Source: Stratiformator vulcanicus
GTDB lineage: Bacteria; Planctomycetota; Planctomycetia; Planctomycetales; Planctomycetaceae
Reading direction: 5' to 3'
Length of the DNA stretch: 64,000 nucleotides
Assembly (NCBI RefSeq): GCF_007744515.1
Contig: NZ_CP036268.1
Location: 3,146,712 to 3,210,711, forward strand
This document shows positions 25,470 through 42,860 of the stretch, piece by piece (the first letter of the stretch is position 1; each line of letters begins with the position of its first letter). A program made the position numbers and the translations under genes. The notes beneath the pieces are model-generated. The model saw nothing but the letters and a program-made list of their open reading frames with translations. It was not told the origin of the DNA and ran no database searches.

Positions 25470-26375
25470 TTAGTCACATTCGTGATCGAGTCGCTTTCGA
25501 GCAGCAGCGGCGGCCGCCAGCATATCCGAAATCGCTTGGGAATCCTGCTGCTCGATTGCGCTGCGAAAGCGGGAGAGCTGCTCGCTGAAACGGTCGAGCG
25601 CCGCCGTCACTTCTTTTTGGTTGGCGATGAAAATTTGCGTCCACAATTCGGCATCCCCGGCGGCGACGCGAGTCGTATCGCGAAAACCGGTTCCGGCGAA
25701 CGCGTCGAAATCACCCGCTTGAATCAGCCCCGCGAGCGCGGAAGCCGTCACGTGGGGCAAGTGACTGGTCAATGCGAGGATGCGATCATGGTCCTGCGGC
25801 GACATGCTTGCGACATTCGCGCCCAGTGAACGCCAAAACGATTCGACCATACTCACGGCTGATTCGCTGTTTTCAGCGGTCGGGGTGACGACGCACGTTT
25901 TTTGTTGAAAGAGTGACGCACTTGCGTGCCGCCATCCCTGTTTTTCCGACCCGGCCAACGGATGCGAGCCCACGAATTCGATACCGCGTTCCAGCGAACC
26001 GGCCGCATCGCGACAAATCGTTGCCTTCACGCTGCCGCCATCGGTGATCACAGCGCCGTCCCGGCAGTGACGGGCGATCGCGCGCACGTCCTGCGCGATT
26101 CGTCCGACCGGCGTGCAGACGACAGCGAAATCAGCCTGCGGATCGGTCGGCGGACCATCGATTTCCTGCGCCACGTCGATAAGGCCGGCCTCGCGGGCTT
26201 CGTCCAACCGACCCGGGTCACGACCGAAACCGACGACCGTCCAGCCGGGATGATGGGCTTTGATTGCTGCCGCAATCGATCCACCGATCAAGCCGACGCC
26301 GACAATCGCGACGACACCATCGGTCGGGATGTGTTGGCTCGGATCACCCGGTGATCCCGATCGATTCTGGTGCAT
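25470..26375 (-). CDS. tyrA: prephenate (arogenate) dehydrogenase TyrA
   Basis: Oxidative decarboxylation of prephenate or arogenate in tyrosine synthesis, NAD(P)-dependent. The Rossmann motif I-V-G-V-G-L-I-G-G-S lies near the N-terminus, D-G-G-S-V-K and then the active-site block G-S-H-P-L-A-G-S-E-K-Q-G near the middle, and the helical dimer domain (L-T-S-H-L-P-H, then G-F-R-D-T-T-R) after it. About 301 residues is typical for the single-domain enzyme with no chorismate mutase or ACT domain. I choose ATG 26375 over an in-frame GTG at 26381 because G-G-A-G lies 8 bases upstream of the ATG but only 2 from the GTG. The gene is divergent from the large gene at 26589. Confidence 0.93.
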   Translation of the reverse strand: MHQNRSGSPGDPSQHIPTDGVVAIVGVGLIGGSIAAAIKAHHPGWTVVGFGRDPGRLDEAREAGLIDVAQEIDGPPTDPQADFAVVCTPVGRIAQDVRAIARHCRDGAVITDGGSVKATICRDAAGSLERGIEFVGSHPLAGSEKQGWRHASASLFQQKTCVVTPTAENSESAVSMVESFWRSLGANVASMSPQDHDRILALTSHLPHVTASALAGLIQAGDFDAFAGTGFRDTTRVAAGDAELWTQIFIANQKEVTAALDRFSEQLSRFRSAIEQQDSQAISDMLAAAAAARKRLDHECD

Positions 26376-26588
26376 GTCCACAACTCCGGTCGCACTTTAA
26401 ATTGCCTTCGCCGATCATGCCAGCGGGCGACGGAAAGCGAGGTCCGGTCCGAAGCGAGTGCCGGAGGCGCCCTTTCCAATCAACGCCCCCCGTGTTTTAC
26501 TGGAAGATTCCGAATTTCTCGTTTTCCGAATCTCTCGCCCCATCGGGCGTCTCGATTCGGTCGATTCTTTTTGAGTCTGTCAGACACG

Positions 26589-29500
26589 ATGGCCAATTCC
26601 GGGACTTCTTCCGGCAAAATAACCGAAGCCGCCCGCGCGTTGCTCGGCTACCTGAATTATTCCGCGGGACGAGCGGACGTTGCGGCACTTTCCGCCGCTA
26701 ACGAGATGTTCGCCGCCCTCGATCCGTCTTCGTGGGACGAGGTCCGGTCCGCTCTGCGCGGCGAGTTGAAATCGCTCGCGGCCGAGTCAGATGCGTTTCG
26801 GGACAGCCGTCAGGCGAGTGCCGCCCTCGATCTCACCTTCGATGAGTTGCTGCCCGCCTATCGCCGCCATCACCGGGATCTCCTGGCGCACCTCGAACCG
26901 ACCGACGAACTCAATCCGTTTTTCCTGATGCGGATGTTTGAGGCAGTGCTGCGGCAAGAATCCCCCTTGGATTCGTCAGATCGTGTGGTCGAAGGCACGA
27001 TCGGCACGATCAACGATTACGTCGGTTACCGCCCGCGGGCCGTGCTCGAGAACGACCGGCTTGCCGAAGTCTATGCCCACGAACGATTTCGCCCGGTCCC
27101 GCTCTTTATCGCTGGAGCCGGGGTCGCATGGGGGCCGTTTCACGACCTGCTCGAAGCCGCATTGAAGATTTGTCATCAGTGTCCCGCCCCGATGCGCGAG
27201 GCGGCGTACCTGCATGTCGAACGCCTTGACGAAATCGCACTCGATGTCCGGGCGCACGATCACCTGCATCCGGTCAACAAACGGACGAACTACCCGTTCG
27301 GGGAATGGGATCCCGATTTGATCGATGAGTCGGGCTACTACCGGCGATTTATCGTTCGCAAGATCATCCTCGATTCGCTCTCGGCATGGCTGCGGGGTGA
27401 GGATGGCTCGAACCTGTCTTACGAGGACCGGCTGTTCGACGCCGCCGGCGTGTTGTGCGGCACCATGCTGATGGCGTCGGCAATCAGCGGCGAAGGACCC
27501 ACGACCCACGACTCGACGCGATCGCTGACCGACTTGCTGCCTGACGTCGCGAAGCAACGGGATGACTATTACGGCTGGCTGATGGCCATCGCCGGGAGCG
27601 GGCGGGCAAAGCGTCTTCAGAGCGAGCAGAAACAGTTCCGGCAACCTTTCGGTCGAGTGCGACAGTTCCTCAATCTTTATCTCGCCGAATATGGATCGCG
27701 GCAGGTGCAATCGCGACACGTGGCTGTGCAATACGCCCGGCTCGGCATGGCCCCGGCCGCGCGAGAACTGTCCGCTCAGATCCCTTCCGTCGCCGGACGA
27801 ATCGAGTGCGACATTCGCTGCCGCATTTCGAGCGGACGTGTGGCCTGTTCCGAACGCGATATCGATGAGGCGATCCAGTCGTTTCGCGATGCGTGCGATT
27901 TAATGCGACGCGGTATCGAATGCGGCGGGCTGATTGACCCGTGGAATATCCTCGGGTTCCAAGCCCAATTCCCACTGTTCGCGGCACGTGAAGACGCCAT
28001 TCCGGATCATCGAGCCGAATCGTTATTCGATTTGATGGAAGCAACGTTCGATCTCGCTGGCGAGATCACGACGGTTGCCGCCGCACTCGGACGCGACGAC
28101 AGCGATTTCCTGCGCGAGTTCCAACAACTCGGCGACTGGTGGGATCGGTTCGCGACGACAGTGATTCAGGATCTGCCGTCGATTTCCGGGCAGGAGCATT
28201 TCGACTCGGCGTCGGCCGTCGCGAGCGTTTTGCGGGCTTGGTATCAATCGAAGCAACCGGGTGAGGACGTTTCCTTTTGGAGAGAGCGTGTTGAAGTCCT
28301 CGATTCTCCGCGTTCCTTCGGGCGGATCGTGCGTGTGCTTCTGGATCACAATCAAGCGCTGGCGGCGGCGGGCTTGCTGATGGAATGGCTCAGCCGCGTT
28401 GACGATGTCGGTGCGGAATCGGGCGAGTTCTCGCTATTCGATCTGCTTCGCCGCGTATTCGATACGATCGTGTCGGATGAGTCGGACGAAGCCGAAACGT
28501 GGCAGCAGACGCGTCGATTCTTCGACTTCCTCGAAGCCAATGCGGGTGAGTTTTGGGAGACCCCGAGCTTTTCCGAATTCGGTGACGATGCCGAGCCGGA
28601 GGCTGCCGCGAATACCGACGACGGGGAGGATGAGCTGTTCGCCGCCGCGTACGAGGGCGTCGTTTATCGCGACAGCTCGGATGATGGGCAGGAAGGCGAA
28701 CTGATGGATGACGGGATGATCCCATCGACCGACGATGCCGAATTCGACACCGCCGCCGAACGACTGGAGCCGAGGCTGAAGTTTCTGAGTGCGTTGGGCC
28801 GGCTGTGGCAGGAAGCGGCCGGGCGATTCGACCCGGTCCGGCTCGAAAACTCGATCGCCGACTCCAACCCCCGCGCCGAATTGCCGACGCGAACTCTTAA
28901 CCGATGGAGGCGGCACGCGAACCGTCTCTCCACCGATCTGCGCAAGCTCGGTCACTTCATCGAAGACCGAAGTATCGAAGCCACCGCCGGGGACGCCGAT
29001 GCGAACGCGGCGCTCGACAACGTCGTTCAGGCAAAGCTGCAATTGCTTCATCAGGTGGTCGCTCCCGTGTTGGAGGTTGACATGGGACACGCCCTGCTTG
29101 CGGCGCGCGTTCGCGACGAGGTCGACCCGCGATCCCGCTGCATCGCCGCCGTCCTCGCGGCCGATGTCGGAGGTGTCCGAACGACGATGTCTTCGCTCAT
29201 TGCCGACCTGAAGTTCGAGCCGCTGCTGTATGTGGGGTTCGATCACGGCGGCCGATTCAAAAAGGTCGTTGACGTCCGTTCGCGACAGCGGCTGATCCGA
29301 TTTCTTCTCTCGGAGCTGCCGCGGCTCGGGCTGTTGCAGGAGACCCGTCGATTGCTCAAGACAGCGCTCGATATGGAGCGCCGTTCCCGTCCCGAAGGCC
29401 CCGCGGTGACGGAGTTCGACCGCCTGTTCCGAACGGCATTTTCGGAAAGTCTCGATGCCGCCATTCGCTCGGTTTCACGCACCGCTTCCCGTTTGCCACA

Positions 29501-30626
29501 ACCGCGTGTCGAGCGACTCGCGCCGATGCAGCCCCGCCGAAAGAAACGATCGGCCCGTCCCGGGCGGCCCCGCAAGCGTGTCCCCGTTCGCACGGTTTCG
29601 CATGTCGCTGCGCTGCCGACTCGATCCGATTCGGTGGTCGAAGCCGCGGGCCTGATCGTCGACGCCTTCAGCGGACTTTGGATCAGGCACGCCCGCACGA
29701 TGCGGCTCTCTGCCGCCGAGGCGTTTCTCGATCCCGTCATCTGGCGTCGGACCAAAGCCTTCGTTCGCGAGTATGGCAGCGAATTGCTGCACGCCCGCCT
29801 GATGACCGTGACCAATCTTCGAGCAATTTTGCACGAAGGCGTTGCCGGCTTTCTTGACCGCTTGGTTGAAGATTCCAATCCGCTTTCCGAATTGAAATTC
29901 GCCGACGCACTTAAAACGAAGAAAGTCGATGCTGACGAAGCGGCGGAGATTCTGGAACTGATCTTCACGACGGTACTCGATCAGCTTGATCGATTCGTCG
30001 AGTACAACACCACGACGACACAATCGGACTATGGCGAGAAGTTTGATCGCTTCCTCGATCTGCTCCGCATTGAAGCGCGATACGACCGCGATCAATGGAA
30101 CCTGATGCCCATGATCCTCGCGCATCGGGCGATGGCCGAGCACGGCGAATATGAAGCGGTCCGGCAGTGGGAGAAATTTCTGGCCGTTCAGACCGCCGAG
30201 AAAGCAGACGCCTATCTGAAACGGCTCGGCGATATCGAGCGGCGACACGCCATCCGACTGCCCTCGGTTCATGACCATGTCGCCGAAAAATTTATTCGAC
30301 CGCTCGCGGTGAATCGCATTCTGACGCTGGTCGCCAAGACCACCGGTGATGCGCCGGTCGATCGGGCGCGGCGCGAATTTCGATCGGCCGTCGAGGCTTA
30401 CCTTACCGAATCGAGCGGTTCCTCGGTCGACTTGCCGGAATGGTTGGCTCGGCTCGAGCAGCGCGTCGATGCCGTCGTCTCACACCGTGACGCCCGACTC
30501 GATCCGTTCACCCTCCGGCGAGCACCGCGGCAAATGCGGCCGCGGCAACTGCTGCTGCAATTGCGGCGAGCGGAGCGACGAAAGCCTAAGAGGCCGCGCG
30601 AGCGCACGAACGAACTCGCATCCTAA
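26589..30626 (+). CDS. large soluble protein of unknown function (1345 aa)
   Basis: I do not recognise the family. The ATG at 26589 (M-A-N-S-G-T-S) is chosen because upstream in-frame codons overlap the divergent tyrA start region and encode unrelated low-quality sequence. The product has no signal peptide or membrane helix and is predicted mostly alpha-helical, with leucine/alanine/arginine/aspartate-rich stretches. A very acidic insert lies at about residues 660-725, and a strongly basic proline-rich stretch (R-R-K-K-R-S-A-R-P-G-R-P-R-K-R) at about 980-995 could bind nucleic acid or form a linker. The C-terminus is Arg/Lys-rich. It is a single gene with no obvious operon partner. Helical-repeat scaffold is my best guess only. 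Confidence 0.8.
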   Translation: MANSGTSSGKITEAARALLGYLNYSAGRADVAALSAANEMFAALDPSSWDEVRSALRGELKSLAAESDAFRDSRQASAALDLTFDELLPAYRRHHRDLLAHLEPTDELNPFFLMRMFEAVLRQESPLDSSDRVVEGTIGTINDYVGYRPRAVLENDRLAEVYAHERFRPVPLFIAGAGVAWGPFHDLLEAALKICHQCPAPMREAAYLHVERLDEIALDVRAHDHLHPVNKRTNYPFGEWDPDLIDESGYYRRFIVRKIILDSLSAWLRGEDGSNLSYEDRLFDAAGVLCGTMLMASAISGEGPTTHDSTRSLTDLLPDVAKQRDDYYGWLMAIAGSGRAKRLQSEQKQFRQPFGRVRQFLNLYLAEYGSRQVQSRHVAVQYARLGMAPAARELSAQIPSVAGRIECDIRCRISSGRVACSERDIDEAIQSFRDACDLMRRGIECGGLIDPWNILGFQAQFPLFAAREDAIPDHRAESLFDLMEATFDLAGEITTVAAALGRDDSDFLREFQQLGDWWDRFATTVIQDLPSISGQEHFDSASAVASVLRAWYQSKQPGEDVSFWRERVEVLDSPRSFGRIVRVLLDHNQALAAAGLLMEWLSRVDDVGAESGEFSLFDLLRRVFDTIVSDESDEAETWQQTRRFFDFLEANAGEFWETPSFSEFGDDAEPEAAANTDDGEDELFAAAYEGVVYRDSSDDGQEGELMDDGMIPSTDDAEFDTAAERLEPRLKFLSALGRLWQEAAGRFDPVRLENSIADSNPRAELPTRTLNRWRRHANRLSTDLRKLGHFIEDRSIEATAGDADANAALDNVVQAKLQLLHQVVAPVLEVDMGHALLAARVRDEVDPRSRCIAAVLAADVGGVRTTMSSLIADLKFEPLLYVGFDHGGRFKKVVDVRSRQRLIRFLLSELPRLGLLQETRRLLKTALDMERRSRPEGPAVTEFDRLFRTAFSESLDAAIRSVSRTASRLPQPRVERLAPMQPRRKKRSARPGRPRKRVPVRTVSHVAALPTRSDSVVEAAGLIVDAFSGLWIRHARTMRLSAAEAFLDPVIWRRTKAFVREYGSELLHARLMTVTNLRAILHEGVAGFLDRLVEDSNPLSELKFADALKTKKVDADEAAEILELIFTTVLDQLDRFVEYNTTTTQSDYGEKFDRFLDLLRIEARYDRDQWNLMPMILAHRAMAEHGEYEAVRQWEKFLAVQTAEKADAYLKRLGDIERRHAIRLPSVHDHVAEKFIRPLAVNRILTLVAKTTGDAPVDRARREFRSAVEAYLTESSGSSVDLPEWLARLEQRVDAVVSHRDARLDPFTLRRAPRQMRPRQLLLQLRRAERRKPKRPRERTNELAS

Positions 30627-38096: not shown

Positions 38097-39500
38097 ATGA
38101 GCGGATCGGCAGTACGCCCCGGCAAACATGGCAAAACAGCCAATCAAGCGGTGACGCACAAACCAGGCAAGAGGGGCGGACAGGGGTCCGACTTGTTGCC
38201 GATTATGGTCGGAATGGTTCTGACGCTCGGCTTTTACGCCGCCATTCCGTCACTGCCGGCTTATCGCGAATTTGTGACGCGTTACTTCTGCGGACACCCG
38301 CTCGAGTACGTCACGGCGGGGCTGTTCTTCATTGGTCTGGCAATCCTCGGGCGAAAAATGCTGGCCCTCGGGGCTGAGCGGCGTGCCTTTCGGCAGATTG
38401 ATGAAGCCGCCGGAGAACCACTCGCCCGGACGCTGCGATCGCTTGGGCTTGTCGACTACTTACTCGCTGGGATTCCGCCGCGGGCGCGACGGACGGCGAT
38501 CGCGGGACGGCTCCGCGACGTCTCCGAGTATCTTGACGGCAACCCGACTCAGAACGAAGTCGGCGGACATTTGAAATATCTGGCGGAACTGGCCGCCGAG
38601 CGCATGCACGGCAGCTACGCGTTTCTGCGAACGATCACCTGGGCCGTTCCGATCCTCGGATTTCTCGGCACCGTCATGGGAATCACAATCGCGATCGCCA
38701 ACATCAATCCCGAACAACTGAACTCGTCACTCGGCGAAGTCACCGGCGGTCTTGCGGTCGCGTTCGATACGACGGCGCTCGCTCTGGCACTGTCGCTCGT
38801 TCTCGTGTTCGCCAATTTCATGACCGAGCGAGCCGAGCAGCGGCTTCTTGACGATCTCGAAGAATTCGGCATCTCGCTTTCTGCCCGGCTCGGTGCGGCA
38901 TCGGCCGCCGGTTCGCCCGTGATGGACGCCGAAGCGGAAATGGCCGAACGGTTCTCGTCCGAAATGCAACAGTTGCTCGGCGAGCAGGCGGCCGTCTGGC
39001 GGGAGTCGCTTGAACTGGTGCGGACCCGCTGGGTCGAAACGATCAACGAACAACAGACGGAACTCGCGGCCAACCTGCAATCGGCCTCGATGGCGACACT
39101 GGCCGATCATTCTCGGTCACTCGCCGCAGCCCGGCATGAGCTCATTGAAGCCGTCAATCAGTCGACCGGTGCGATTACCGGCTCGGTCGATCGCTTCACT
39201 CGGGAAGCGGACGAACGTCAGACCGAACAAATCGCCGAACTTCGCTCGCTGTGGACCGGTATCTCCGAGCAGCTCGGCGACTCGGGCGACCGCCTTCGAG
39301 AGCATCATGCGGCGATGCAGGCTCAGACCGAGCAACTTTCTCGACTGATGTCGGACGAAGCTGATCTGGCTCGATTGCAGCAGCTTCTGGCCGACAATCT
39401 GGCCACGCTGCAGATCGGCGAGACGTTCGAAGATTCGATCAACAGCCTCACCGGAGCCGTGCATTTGTTGACAAGTAAGGCGGGCAAGCGGGCCGCGTAG
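38097..39500 (+). CDS. MotA/TolQ/ExbB-type proton channel protein with long coiled-coil tail
   Basis: Predicted inner-membrane stator subunit that couples proton flow to a periplasmic partner. Starting at ATG 38097 (A-A-G-G-A-G five bases upstream) the product has 467 residues: two hydrophobic helices near 35-65 and 75-95, a cytoplasmic loop, and the family block with G-F-L-G-T-V-M-G-I (about residues 188-196) and V-A-F-D-T-T-A-L-A-L-A-L-S-L-V-L (about 220-235). A tail of about 220 residues follows, rich in Glu, Gln, Leu and Arg, with a predicted long coiled coil. TolQ/ExbB are about 230 residues, so this is extended. It begins a three-gene operon with two ExbD-like partners. Upstream in-frame codons from 37905 lie in repeat. 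Confidence 0.88.
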   Translation: MSGSAVRPGKHGKTANQAVTHKPGKRGGQGSDLLPIMVGMVLTLGFYAAIPSLPAYREFVTRYFCGHPLEYVTAGLFFIGLAILGRKMLALGAERRAFRQIDEAAGEPLARTLRSLGLVDYLLAGIPPRARRTAIAGRLRDVSEYLDGNPTQNEVGGHLKYLAELAAERMHGSYAFLRTITWAVPILGFLGTVMGITIAIANINPEQLNSSLGEVTGGLAVAFDTTALALALSLVLVFANFMTERAEQRLLDDLEEFGISLSARLGAASAAGSPVMDAEAEMAERFSSEMQQLLGEQAAVWRESLELVRTRWVETINEQQTELAANLQSASMATLADHSRSLAAARHELIEAVNQSTGAITGSVDRFTREADERQTEQIAELRSLWTGISEQLGDSGDRLREHHAAMQAQTEQLSRLMSDEADLARLQQLLADNLATLQIGETFEDSINSLTGAVHLLTSKAGKRAA

Positions 39501-39557
39501 GCCTATCCGTGTGAAGCAAAATCGACCCGACCGACGTCCTTCAGCGAGGCACGCTCG

Positions 39558-41705
39558 ATGGCCCGAGCGAAAGCCGCGGCGGCCAATCCCGTTTCACTGT
39601 TCCCGTTCCTGGCCGTGCTCCTATGCGCGATGGGGGCGCTGATCTTCTTGCTGATTGTTATCACGCAACAGATCCGGGAAGAGCGACTCGCGACGGCTTC
39701 AGTTGCCGCATCGGACTCCGATGACCCGGAGCCGCCTGAAATCATCCAACCGCCCGTACCGGAGCTGCATGCGCCGCCGACATTGGCGCCCACGCCGATC
39801 GTCGCGGACGCCGGGACTCGCAATGGGATGGCCGGACAGATCGACCCCGATCAACCGGTGAAGGTCCCCCGCGTCTATCTCTTCCGCGAGAACCCGCCAG
39901 CGCCGCCGCCGCCCGATCCGAATCAAAAGATTCGCGCCGCCTACGCGCTCGCGACTCAGAAAGTCGAAACGTTTCGCGCTCGCGCCGCGTCCGGCCGCAA
40001 TCGATCGATCGCACTGAGCCGCTCGGTCACGGCGCTGAAGAATGAACTCCAGTCGGCCGACCGCCGACGCAGCGAACTGCAACAGGCAATTGCCGCCCGA
40101 GATGCCGAGCGGTTGAAGAAGGAAACGCAGCTCGCCCGAATGCAGGCCGAACTGAGCAAACTGGCTGATGAGGTCCGCGAAAAAGCGGAGCAGCGCGCCA
40201 GCGAGCCGCCGAAGTATTCCGTTGTGCCGTTCGATGGCGCAACGGGAACGACTCGGCGTCCGATCCTTATTGAATGCACGGGCGAAGGGCTGACGTTTCT
40301 GAACGAGCGAATCGATCTGGGCGGAGCCGACCTCAATGGTTTTACGGCCGATGCGAACCCCGTCGCAGCCGGAGTCGACGCACTCAATGCCTACTGGAAG
40401 CAGCAGGACCGGCGGGAACCTTACGTGCTGCTGCTGGTGCGTCCGGAAGGCACGGTCGCGTACTACGCGGCCCGGCTGTTCCTGGGCGACCGGATCGAAC
40501 AAACCGGTTACGAGCTCATTCCTGACGGCGTCGAAATCGCGTTGCCCGAGATCGACCGCGAAGCACGAGATTTAGCGGTCGCGGCGATGCGTGATATCCC
40601 ACGATCGATCGGATCGGTCGGTCGATCGATGGGACGCGCTCCGGTTCGAAACGATGACCCGATCGAAATCACGCTCGGCGAGCGCGGTCTATCAATGGGG
40701 GGCCTCTATGAAGACCCGACCGAGATGACACCCAATTACGCTCGCTCGGAAACGAGCGGACCAAACCGGAACTCCTACGGACCGGGGAATGGGCCTGCCT
40801 CCGAGCCACGCACCAATCCTCGCTCCCCCTTCGCCCCCGGCAACAATGCGGGACGATTCGACCGGAACGCCGGCCCGGCTAACGGGACCGGTCTTAATCC
40901 CAGCGACCCATCCGGAACGGGGCAGCGCCGTTACGGCGACCGCCCCAGCCAGTCAGGCCCCTCCGGCAGCGATTTCGACGCCTACCTGCAAGCCGCTCGC
41001 GATCGAAAGTCGGGCAACTCCACAAACTCACCTGAGCGGAGCCGCGGCGAAGAGGGTACATCGAGTAACTCTGACGCCCCAACGAATCCTGATGCGAAAT
41101 CATCCGGAACACGACCCGACGGAAGGCAGTCGCTCGAATCGCTGCTCAGCGGAGCGGGCTCTCAGCAGAGCCGGGCGCAGCAGCTTCGCCGAGATCCGTT
41201 GAGGGACCAAGATGACAACTGGGCCCCGAGCGAGCGATCGCTCTCCTCCACGCGGGCGGGTAAGGCCTCCGGTGAACCGCGGTTGCTGTCCGACGATATC
41301 GAAGAGACCGCGCTCAACGGTTCGACCAGAAATCTCCCGCAGGCTCGCGGCGATGCCACACTGTGGGGTTCCTCTTCTCGCAACGCGCTAATCGGGTTGG
41401 AACGGTCGATCAACGTCCGCTTCTACGCAGATCAATTGGCTGTCGGATCACAATCGCCGATCAAACTCGGACGTGGCGAAACTTCGACCGAATTGCTCCA
41501 GGCACTCGTCCGTAAAACGAACGCAGAAACGACGGCGTGGGGTGATCCACCCGATGGCTTCCGATGGACGCCGCAGCTCGACATCGACGTGATGCCGGGC
41601 GGGAATCAACATCTCGGCCGCATCGACGACCGGCTGTCGCGTTACGGTCTGCGAACTCGCATCGAGCGTCGACTCACCGATCCCGCACTCGAAACGGGGA
41701 ATTAA
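39558..41705 (+). CDS. large ExbD/MotB-like partner protein, membrane anchor without Asp (715 aa)
   Basis: No known full-length relative. One N-terminal transmembrane helix (about residues 14-38: F-P-F-L-A-V-L-L-C-A-M-G-A-L-I-F-L) lacks the aspartate found in ExbD, TolR and MotB helices. It is followed by a Pro-rich segment, a coiled coil (about 110-220), a soluble domain with P-I-L-I-E-C-T-G-E-G-L and P-Y-V-L-L-L-V-R-P-E-G-T-V-A (about 235-345), and then about 180 residues of Asn/Gly/Ser/Pro-rich, low-complexity sequence, ending in a compact region. The ATG is preceded by G-A-G-G. It lies between the channel gene (57 bp) and the second ExbD-like gene (3 bp), so the three almost certainly work together. 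Confidence 0.8.
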   Translation: MARAKAAAANPVSLFPFLAVLLCAMGALIFLLIVITQQIREERLATASVAASDSDDPEPPEIIQPPVPELHAPPTLAPTPIVADAGTRNGMAGQIDPDQPVKVPRVYLFRENPPAPPPPDPNQKIRAAYALATQKVETFRARAASGRNRSIALSRSVTALKNELQSADRRRSELQQAIAARDAERLKKETQLARMQAELSKLADEVREKAEQRASEPPKYSVVPFDGATGTTRRPILIECTGEGLTFLNERIDLGGADLNGFTADANPVAAGVDALNAYWKQQDRREPYVLLLVRPEGTVAYYAARLFLGDRIEQTGYELIPDGVEIALPEIDREARDLAVAAMRDIPRSIGSVGRSMGRAPVRNDDPIEITLGERGLSMGGLYEDPTEMTPNYARSETSGPNRNSYGPGNGPASEPRTNPRSPFAPGNNAGRFDRNAGPANGTGLNPSDPSGTGQRRYGDRPSQSGPSGSDFDAYLQAARDRKSGNSTNSPERSRGEEGTSSNSDAPTNPDAKSSGTRPDGRQSLESLLSGAGSQQSRAQQLRRDPLRDQDDNWAPSERSLSSTRAGKASGEPRLLSDDIEETALNGSTRNLPQARGDATLWGSSSRNALIGLERSINVRFYADQLAVGSQSPIKLGRGETSTELLQALVRKTNAETTAWGDPPDGFRWTPQLDIDVMPGGNQHLGRIDDRLSRYGLRTRIERRLTDPALETGN

Positions 41706-41708
41706 CCA

Positions 41709-42860
41709 ATGGCCCGTCGACGTGGGGGCGATCCCGAATTCGGCTCCGATTCTTTCCTCGACATTGTCGCAAACATTGTCGGGATTCTGATCATTCTCAT
41801 CGTGGTCGCCGGCCTGCGTATTGCGCAGATGCCGGCTGTTCTCCCAATGGAAATGGTCGAATCTGGACCGGCCCTTGTCGAGCCAGAAGTGCTTCCCGAA
41901 CTGCCGCCGACACCGCTCACGCCACCACCCGCTCCCCGACCCGCAAAAATTAAAAAGCTCGCGCCGGTCGTCGCTCCCCGTCCGGTGATTGTCGAAGTCG
42001 AACCCGAACCACCGAAGGCCCCGCAGATCGACCAGCAGCTTCTCGCCGCACAGCGACAAGCAGAGGACGAACTGCGCCGGCTCACCATATTGGTCGACCA
42101 AGAGGACGATACATCCGCGAAGCTCGCCCAATTTCAAACTGCGGCCGAGCGAAAACTTGCCGCCGAGCGGCAACGACTCGCGGCGCTGCAAAGCCGCATC
42201 GAGGATCAACGGCAGCGAACCGCGTCGGTCGAAACTCAAGTCGCAAAACTGAATGCGATCCGTGAACTTGCGGATCAGCGAATTGAAGAACTTGAAGAAC
42301 AGCCCACGATCCGTCTCGAACATGAATTAACCCCCGTCGGCACCACGGTGCAGGGAACCGAGATTCACTTCATGATCTCCGGAGGCAAGATCAGCCGCGT
42401 GCCGCTCGACGAACTCGTTTCACGGTTGGAGCCCGAGATCCGCCGACAACTCGCCTGGCTCGCCCGCAACGGACGCGGCACCGGAGAAGTCGGACCGATC
42501 GACGGCTTCTCGATGATCTACGTCGTGGAACGAGGCGGAAAATCGATCCTCGACGAACTCGCGGGCCGAGCGACCGGCATTCGCATCTCGGTCGCCGGAT
42601 GGAAAGTCCTGCCGGAGCCGAACTATCCCCGCGAATCAGTCGACGAGGCGTTACGGTCTGACTCACGGTTCCGATCGCAACTGCGACTCGCCCCCCGCGT
42701 GGCGGCACTCACCTTTTGGGTCTATCCCGACAGCTACGCGGAGTTCCGGGAATTTCAGGCCTACGCACACCAGCAGGGCTTCACCGTCGCCGCCCGCCCG
42801 CTGCCCGAAGGCGTCCCCATCGCCGGCTCCCCCCGCGGCAGCAAATCGCAAGGGCGTTAG
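41709..42860 (+). CDS. ExbD/MotB-like partner protein with transmembrane Asp
   Basis: The 383-residue product has an ExbD-like N-terminus: G-S-D-S-F-L-D-I-V-A-N-I-V-G-I-L-I-I-L-I-V-V, with D18 at the position of the proton-carrying aspartate of ExbD/TolR. After a Pro-rich linker and a coiled coil (about 110-200) there is a soluble domain with E-I-H-F-M-I-S-G-G-K-I-S, ending A-L-T-F-W-V-Y-P-D-S-Y and R-P-L-P-E-G-V-P-I-A-G-S-P-R-G-S-K-S, which looks like a planctomycete-specific C-terminus. It starts 3 bases after the previous stop. The last 20 codons and downstream sequence have been tandemly copied (see 43109 and 43403), so the gene's end is the template for a local duplication. Confidence 0.85.
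   Translation: MARRRGGDPEFGSDSFLDIVANIVGILIILIVVAGLRIAQMPAVLPMEMVESGPALVEPEVLPELPPTPLTPPPAPRPAKIKKLAPVVAPRPVIVEVEPEPPKAPQIDQQLLAAQRQAEDELRRLTILVDQEDDTSAKLAQFQTAAERKLAAERQRLAALQSRIEDQRQRTASVETQVAKLNAIRELADQRIEELEEQPTIRLEHELTPVGTTVQGTEIHFMISGGKISRVPLDELVSRLEPEIRRQLAWLARNGRGTGEVGPIDGFSMIYVVERGGKSILDELAGRATGIRISVAGWKVLPEPNYPRESVDEALRSDSRFRSQLRLAPRVAALTFWVYPDSYAEFREFQAYAHQQGFTVAARPLPEGVPIAGSPRGSKSQGR

Follow-up and report, generated by a model that had tools for sequence, protein, structure and literature searches.

Models of 5:2 motors assume two equivalent aspartates (Asp) that are used in turn. Among the described systems closest to the locus reported here, AglQ and AglS of Myxococcus xanthus each carry a conserved Asp, the choice between a hetero- and a homodimer being left open in the accessible part of the source (PMC9389320); heterologous pairs of TolR-like proteins and TPH-vWA pairs are encoded beside tolQ-like genes in the PVC group, among others (PMC12204202, available in part); and a phylogeny of stators has been published (PMC12505986, also available in part). 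No axle partner devoid of Asp is described in the literature searched, much of it in partial text and with most subscription papers outside its scope. We analysed a stretch of 64,000 nucleotides from Stratiformator vulcanicus (contig NZ_CP036268.1, positions 3,146,712 to 3,210,711; hereafter the window), in which three adjacent genes encode a channel subunit (P1) and two unequal membrane-anchored partners (P2 and P3). Comparative sequence analysis leads us to propose, with a probability of about 0.6, that the three genes encode a single inner-membrane ion-driven stator of 5:1:1 composition, in which one axle helix works and the other is silent. Such a stator, probably driven by protons, would be an asymmetric relative of the Tol and flagellar motors; the stoichiometry, ion, rotation and role are what we infer.

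The three open reading frames (ORFs) lie in a row on the + strand, with gaps of 57 bp (P1-P2) and 3 bp (P2-P3) and purine-rich sequences 5' of the ATG codons of P1 (AAGGAG) and P3 (GGGGA); they encode 467, 715 and 383 amino acids (aa). The gaps and the lengths of P2 and P3 are as the initial annotation gave them, and so is the contrast it had drawn between the two membrane helices. The P2 helix, SLFPFLAVLLCAMGALIFLL, aligns without gaps to the P3 helix, DSFLDIVANIVGILIILIVV, placing A19 opposite D18 (profile alignment, probability 95.5, E 1.6e-8). Homologues of P3 were found in 119 of the 148 genomes of the class, and the loci of 80 of these 119, hand-picked for spread, were fetched. The P3 motif (FLD or FVD in the search pattern) was present in 70 of the 80, the remaining 10 all belonging to one family (f2); Asp occupies the P3 site in 71/71 motif-bearing proteins, window included, as the pattern required it. 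The P2 pattern admitted Ala, Thr, Ser or Asp at the corresponding site, which was read in 66 proteins (65 complete loci and the window) as Ala in 59, Thr in 3, Ser in 2 and Asp in 2; the 15 fetched loci left unread comprise the 10 f2 loci and five cut by contig ends (L064, L092, L096, L102, L109). Positions of the P2 helix outside the search pattern are near-fixed (Cys at +4 in 61/66, Gly at +7 in 66/66, Leu at +9 in 65/66 and Leu at +13 in 63/66), and the Gly at +7 is common to both partners (70/71 in P3). As a control, canonical ExbD proteins of the clade, mostly from the best PF02472 match of each genome, were read with a pattern that did not require Asp itself ([TA]P[MLFQ][IVLM] before the site): all 34 pattern-matching proteins carried it. 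Three exbB-exbD-exbD operons coexist with the triad in the window genome (L234, L235, L237), with short partners and Asp in 6/6 ExbDs, all of which belong to the 34 control proteins.

The synteny search suggested by the initial annotation found both the order of the triad and its silent/active contrast recurring throughout the class. Of the 64 loci that lie outside f2 and are uninterrupted by a contig end, 61 have P1 upstream in the same orientation, with a median P1-P2 gap of 10 nucleotides (nt; at most 100 nt in 53/61); the median P2-P3 gap is 7 nt (at most 200 nt in 63/65), and P2 is longer than P3 in 65/65 loci (medians 699 versus 360 aa). When 84,980 species genomes were scanned with a sequence pattern, 385 relatives emerged, and the best 80 of these comprise 79 with planctomycete titles (among which we count Kuenenia, taking it to be a planctomycete) and one titled Nealsonbacteria (L192). 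Among 246 sampled genomes of the phylum, 26 matched at 1e-6, 15 in the same class and 11 elsewhere, the best two of these 11 (G354, G334) holding a second type of triad, described below. The recurrence of the gene order together with the Ala/Asp contrast across the class is more than chance.

The strongest evidence for a heterodimer is the covariation of the two stems, the stem length being counted on alignments as the residues that separate the Asp site from the first globular domain. Over 66 genomes the stems span 145-287 residues in P2 and 146-298 in P3 and are closely correlated (Pearson 0.88, Spearman 0.86), with a mean difference of 0.1, a median absolute difference of 7 and agreement within 10% in 59/66. 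Correction for phylogeny by independent contrasts, with a tree built from the globular domains, gave r 0.86; of the 65 contrasts, 46 agreed in sign and 10 disagreed, and r was 0.67 without the five largest. Control lengths (P2 linker, P3 domain, P1 tail) set against the stems gave raw r of -0.04 to 0.28, and -0.01 to 0.11 after phylogenetic correction, which was applied to the P2 linker and P3 domain and not to the P1 tail. In addition, P2 and P3 are adjacent in 13/13 loci without a neighbouring channel (the ten f2 loci, L058, L070 and L089). Because the stems covary, the helices are homologous in register and the P2-P3 linkage survives loss of the channel, these data favour a parallel P2-P3 heterodimer over two homodimers, as the initial annotation had supposed.

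AlphaFold2 monomer models of P2 and P3 were used to describe the regions outside the membrane. The P3 model (mean predicted local distance difference test score, pLDDT, 82.3; predicted template modelling score, pTM, 0.50) has its membrane helix at residues 13-40; the P2 model (mean pLDDT 66.6, pTM 0.37) has about 240 low-confidence residues between two domains, the second modelled at residues 605-715, that are homologous to each other (profile alignment, probability 97.9). The top aligned chain for P2 domain 1 was TolR 5by4 (Z 7.0, root-mean-square deviation, rmsd, 3.9 over 85 residues), with ExbD 8pek at Z 6.0; domain 2 matched ExbD 8vgd (Z 6.2, rmsd 2.9, 69 aligned residues) and 8p9r (Z 6.1), and has in the model the order beta-beta-alpha-beta-alpha-beta, which we take to be that of TolR/ExbD. 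The initial view that the periplasmic domains do not look like ExbD finds no support for P2, whose domains show a weak resemblance to this fold. The best fold matches of the P3 domain were RuvC-like, weak and ambiguous (Z 6.8 and less), and among the matches listed there was no TolR/ExbD chain, which is uninformative either way. Neither P2 nor P3 reached the cut-off of any Pfam or NCBIfam family; PF02472 (ExbD/TolR) and the OmpA-like domain gave no Pfam match in either protein at E up to 1, the vWA domain gave no Pfam match, fold searches yielded weak matches, Foldseek returned nothing for the two models at E up to 0.001, and PDB sequence searches with the two proteins returned nothing meaningful.

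Several observations weigh against the proposed heterodimeric axle. All TolR/ExbD fold matches lie below Z 8, domain 2 being tied with sugar kinases and other unrelated folds, and profile comparison of P2 and P3 with ExbD gave non-significant probabilities of 0.6 to 13. Three loci of family f4 have stems that differ by 43 to 48 residues (180/224, 174/222, 177/220). An earlier, cruder measure, the longest proline-free stretch, gave a P2-P3 r of -0.44; it was replaced because it often selected stretches that included the membrane helix or ended at a single proline, and the alignment-anchored measure was chosen after it had failed. Two P2 proteins of the window's own triad type (type 1) carry Asp, the channels of three genomes (G110, G102, G136) are not linked to P2 and P3, and the P2-P3 pair of f2 lacks both membrane motifs and any channel close by (10/10 loci). 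Matched stems could, moreover, reflect a shared periplasmic distance to the same target layer instead of pairing. This last point would suit an arrangement of separate complexes, in which P1 and a P3 homodimer form an ordinary 5:2 stator and the single-pass P2 stands apart or at the periphery, much as TonB or TolA do beside ExbBD or TolQR; such partners bind the side of the motor (PMC12204202, accessible part), and the modelled P2, as they do, ends in a domain on a long tether. We consider this arrangement unlikely, given that the P2 helix is homologous to the axle helix of P3 and in register with it, that its positions +4, +7 and +9, outside the search pattern, are strongly conserved, and that Asp was regained twice in P2 (L070, L089), which makes little sense outside the pore.

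The initial annotation had taken homologues with Asp in both partners to speak against its heterodimer. Such homologues occur: the P2 of G110 and G102 (L070, L089) reads SFLD or TFLD (2/66 type-1 proteins), and five distant triads (L232, L292-L295) carry Asp in both partners; the objection holds in part, the other 64/66 P2 sites being non-acidic. These Asp-bearing homologues show P2 to be a former or potential ion carrier and leave the silent/active contrast intact in those 64. The channels of G110 and G102 form one clade with that of G136 (support 1.0), with a His in the pore stretch GTVxHFG; the P2 site of G136 is still Ala. The exceptions also bear on a reading with two modes, in which the Ala of P2 is neutral drift and a P3 homodimer and a P2-P3 heterodimer are interchangeable. 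The Thr, Ser or Asp found at the site in 7/66 proteins and the both-Asp state of 5 of 19 further loci accord with it; it is nevertheless improbable in view of the small, non-acidic residue in 64/66 and of the second, paralogous triad type, which is also silent/active (8/8 with Ser). As this second type shares the contrast, the silent state would be selected or very stable.

The 19 further channel or P3-like loci divide into nine silent/active, the five both-Asp and five unreadable; the nine comprise L296 and the eight triads of type 2 (L221, L222, L283, L284, L288-L291), which are shorter, combine a silent partner reading PFLS with an active partner reading SLLD, and lie partly outside the class. 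The silent state is therefore stable in at least two triad types, and the scaffold occurs with two carriers as well. The N-terminus of the L288 channel weakly resembles a zinc ribbon, and L285-L287 encode type-2 active partners (LDSLLDT) with no recognised silent partner or channel adjoining.

The f2 pairs (L069, L073, L075, L078, L081, L084, L095, L114, L115, L116) have stems that are alike in the 7 measurable of the 10 loci (for example 184/190 and 176/176). Nine f2 genomes were matched in a search for their channels (L224-L231), which lie apart from P2 and P3, carry a Glu in the pore (GTVEGIS, 8/8 read) and are followed by a one-helix partner, DSFVAVVVTKLTG, with Ala at the Asp site and a Lys further on (8/8). 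Channel and Lys-bearing partner may form a charge-swapped motor, presumably of the kind found in GldLM.

P1 belongs to PF01618 (MotA_ExbB; 51.5 bits against a cut-off of 22.9) and has a long C-terminal tail, a putative coiled coil in the initial annotation, its pore motifs GFLGTVMGIT and AFDTTALAL being conserved and the pore Thr residues kept, which bears out the MotA/TolQ/ExbB-type assignment first made; a PDB sequence search with it gave weak ExbB, TolQ and MotA matches (best E 0.005). The window genome (5.23 Mb, single contig) holds seven PF01618 matches. The tail raises the question of a Zorya-like defence motor, with a long cytoplasmic tail, wall-damage sensing and a cytoplasmic effector: P1 matches the PADLOC ZorA2 models (E 6e-12, models without a given cut-off) along the core and some of the tail, and the long tail of ZorA is functionally required (PMC11890865, accessible part). 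This alternative is highly improbable. P1 scores 22.6 bits against NCBIfam ZorA_2, whose cut-off is 100; the nine neighbouring ORFs have no Zor match at E up to 0.01, the OmpA-like domain is found in neither partner, and, in contrast to a mobile defence system, the triad is present in the majority of the class genomes. A Zorya identity was rejected on the sub-threshold ZorA_2 score and the lack of Zor neighbours.

In the stator that we propose, five P1 subunits would build the channel, and the pore would hold one P2 helix beside one P3 helix. The ion would be carried by D18 of P3 alone, with the helix of P2 (A19) passively completing the axle, and ion flow would rotate this axle relative to the pentamer; a single carrier would lower the expected number of protonation events per turn from ten to five. 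Outside the membrane, P2 and P3 would run parallel as a stem of matched length and then diverge, P3 ending in one domain and P2 in two TolR/ExbD-like domains joined by a long tether; the unlike heads of the two chains probably grip peptidoglycan or outer-membrane components, and the P1 tail may pass motion or a signal into the cytoplasm. The weakest step concerns the role, which by inference is likely that of a core Tol-like envelope motor in planctomycetes without Tol-Pal. TolB_N was found in 0/25 relatives, own genome included, in searches that did not extend to TolA and Pal, and TonB_C in 6/25, own genome not among them, which would leave room for such a motor. TolQ, ExbB, MotA and 'proton channel' are all absent from the main text of a paper on the essential genes of Planctopirus limnophila (PMC10632474, as far as accessible). 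Taken together, an obligate single-carrier 5:1:1 rotary stator with a permanently silent helix, fixed throughout the class, mirrored by a second paralogous triad type and replacing Tol-Pal, is a tentative reading that we hold to be possible though doubtful as a whole; with its two-carrier cousins, and a family whose charge has apparently moved to the channel, it would make the number and place of the carriers evolvable.

Table 1 Coordinates of the P1-P2-P3 locus within the window and basis of each assignment.
Feature	Position	Strand	Basis
P1, MotA/TolQ/ExbB-type channel subunit, 467 aa	38097..39500	+	PF01618, pore motifs
P1 cytoplasmic tail, about residues 246-467	38832..39497	+	Conserved terminal stretch NL..L.....FEET..SL.AA.HLL in P1 alignment
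P2, putative silent partner, 715 aa	39558..41705	+	Homologues adjoin P3
P2 A19 codon, at ion-carrying Asp site	39612..39614	+	Ala in 59/66; in register with P3 D18
P2 long helix (stem), residues 121-215	39918..40202	+	AlphaFold2 model
P2 periplasmic domain 1, residues 219-359	40212..40634	+	AlphaFold2 model; homologous to domain 2
P2 linker, about residues 361-600, probably disordered	40638..41357	+	pLDDT mostly <50
P2 periplasmic domain 2, about residues 605-712	41370..41693	+	AlphaFold2 model
P3, putative active partner, 383 aa	41709..42860	+	Homologues across class
P3 D18 codon, presumed ion carrier	41760..41762	+	Asp in all 71 motif-bearing P3 (pattern required Asp)
P3 long helix (stem), residues 108-196	42030..42296	+	AlphaFold2 model
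P3 periplasmic alpha/beta domain, residues 208-383	42330..42857	+	pLDDT mostly >=90

Scanning the window for Rfam families and tRNAs gave no match, and a promoter/terminator scan of it gave no usable result. Apart from the triad itself, no gene is widely shared among the neighbourhoods of the 80 loci; the next-largest clusters occur in 13 and 11 of them. The former is an ORF that we take to be QueD-like (L041 and others), and a cluster of 5 is presumably QueC-like. The window encodes at 26370-30626 a 1418-aa protein without Pfam match, a homologue of which (41% identity over most of its length) adjoins the triad in L038; this cluster is the one present in 11/80 loci.

A one-Asp family, if confirmed, would test the need for two carriers, the number of ions per turn and the importance of axle symmetry, with the natural revertants (L070, L089) and the both-Asp cousins (L232, L292-L295) as ready comparisons, and would point to a candidate for the envelope motor of bacteria that gave no TolB match. 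Compared with known systems, the triad shares with AglRQS one TolQ-like channel and two different TolR/MotB-like partners, and differs in that AglQ and AglS both have the conserved Asp, which P2 lacks. With the heterologous TolR-like and TPH-vWA pairs it shares paired, non-identical axle proteins; the TPH-vWA pairs, as described in the accessible part of PMC12204202, carry a single Asp on each vWA monomer and end in vWA domains, whereas here one chain is Asp-less and Pfam gave no vWA family match. The tandem exbB-exbD-exbD operons of the same genome likewise combine one channel with two partners, all six of which are short and carry Asp. Zorya ZorAB resembles the triad in its MotA-like channel with a long cytoplasmic tail, but ZorB has a Pal/OmpA-like peptidoglycan domain and a 5:2 stoichiometry (PMC11890865, accessible part); here no such domain was matched and no ZorC, ZorD or ZorE lies nearby. 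TolQR and ExbBD (PF01618 with PF02472) share the channel family, the axle Asp of P3 and perhaps, on weak matches, the fold of the P2 domains, and differ from the triad, in which P2 and P3 fall outside PF02472, one axle chain is silent, the stems measure 145-298 residues and the channel has a long tail. This comparison suggests that the triad is a variant of the ion-driven stators, in which heterologous pairs are already known and the Asp-less partner is new within the literature searched.

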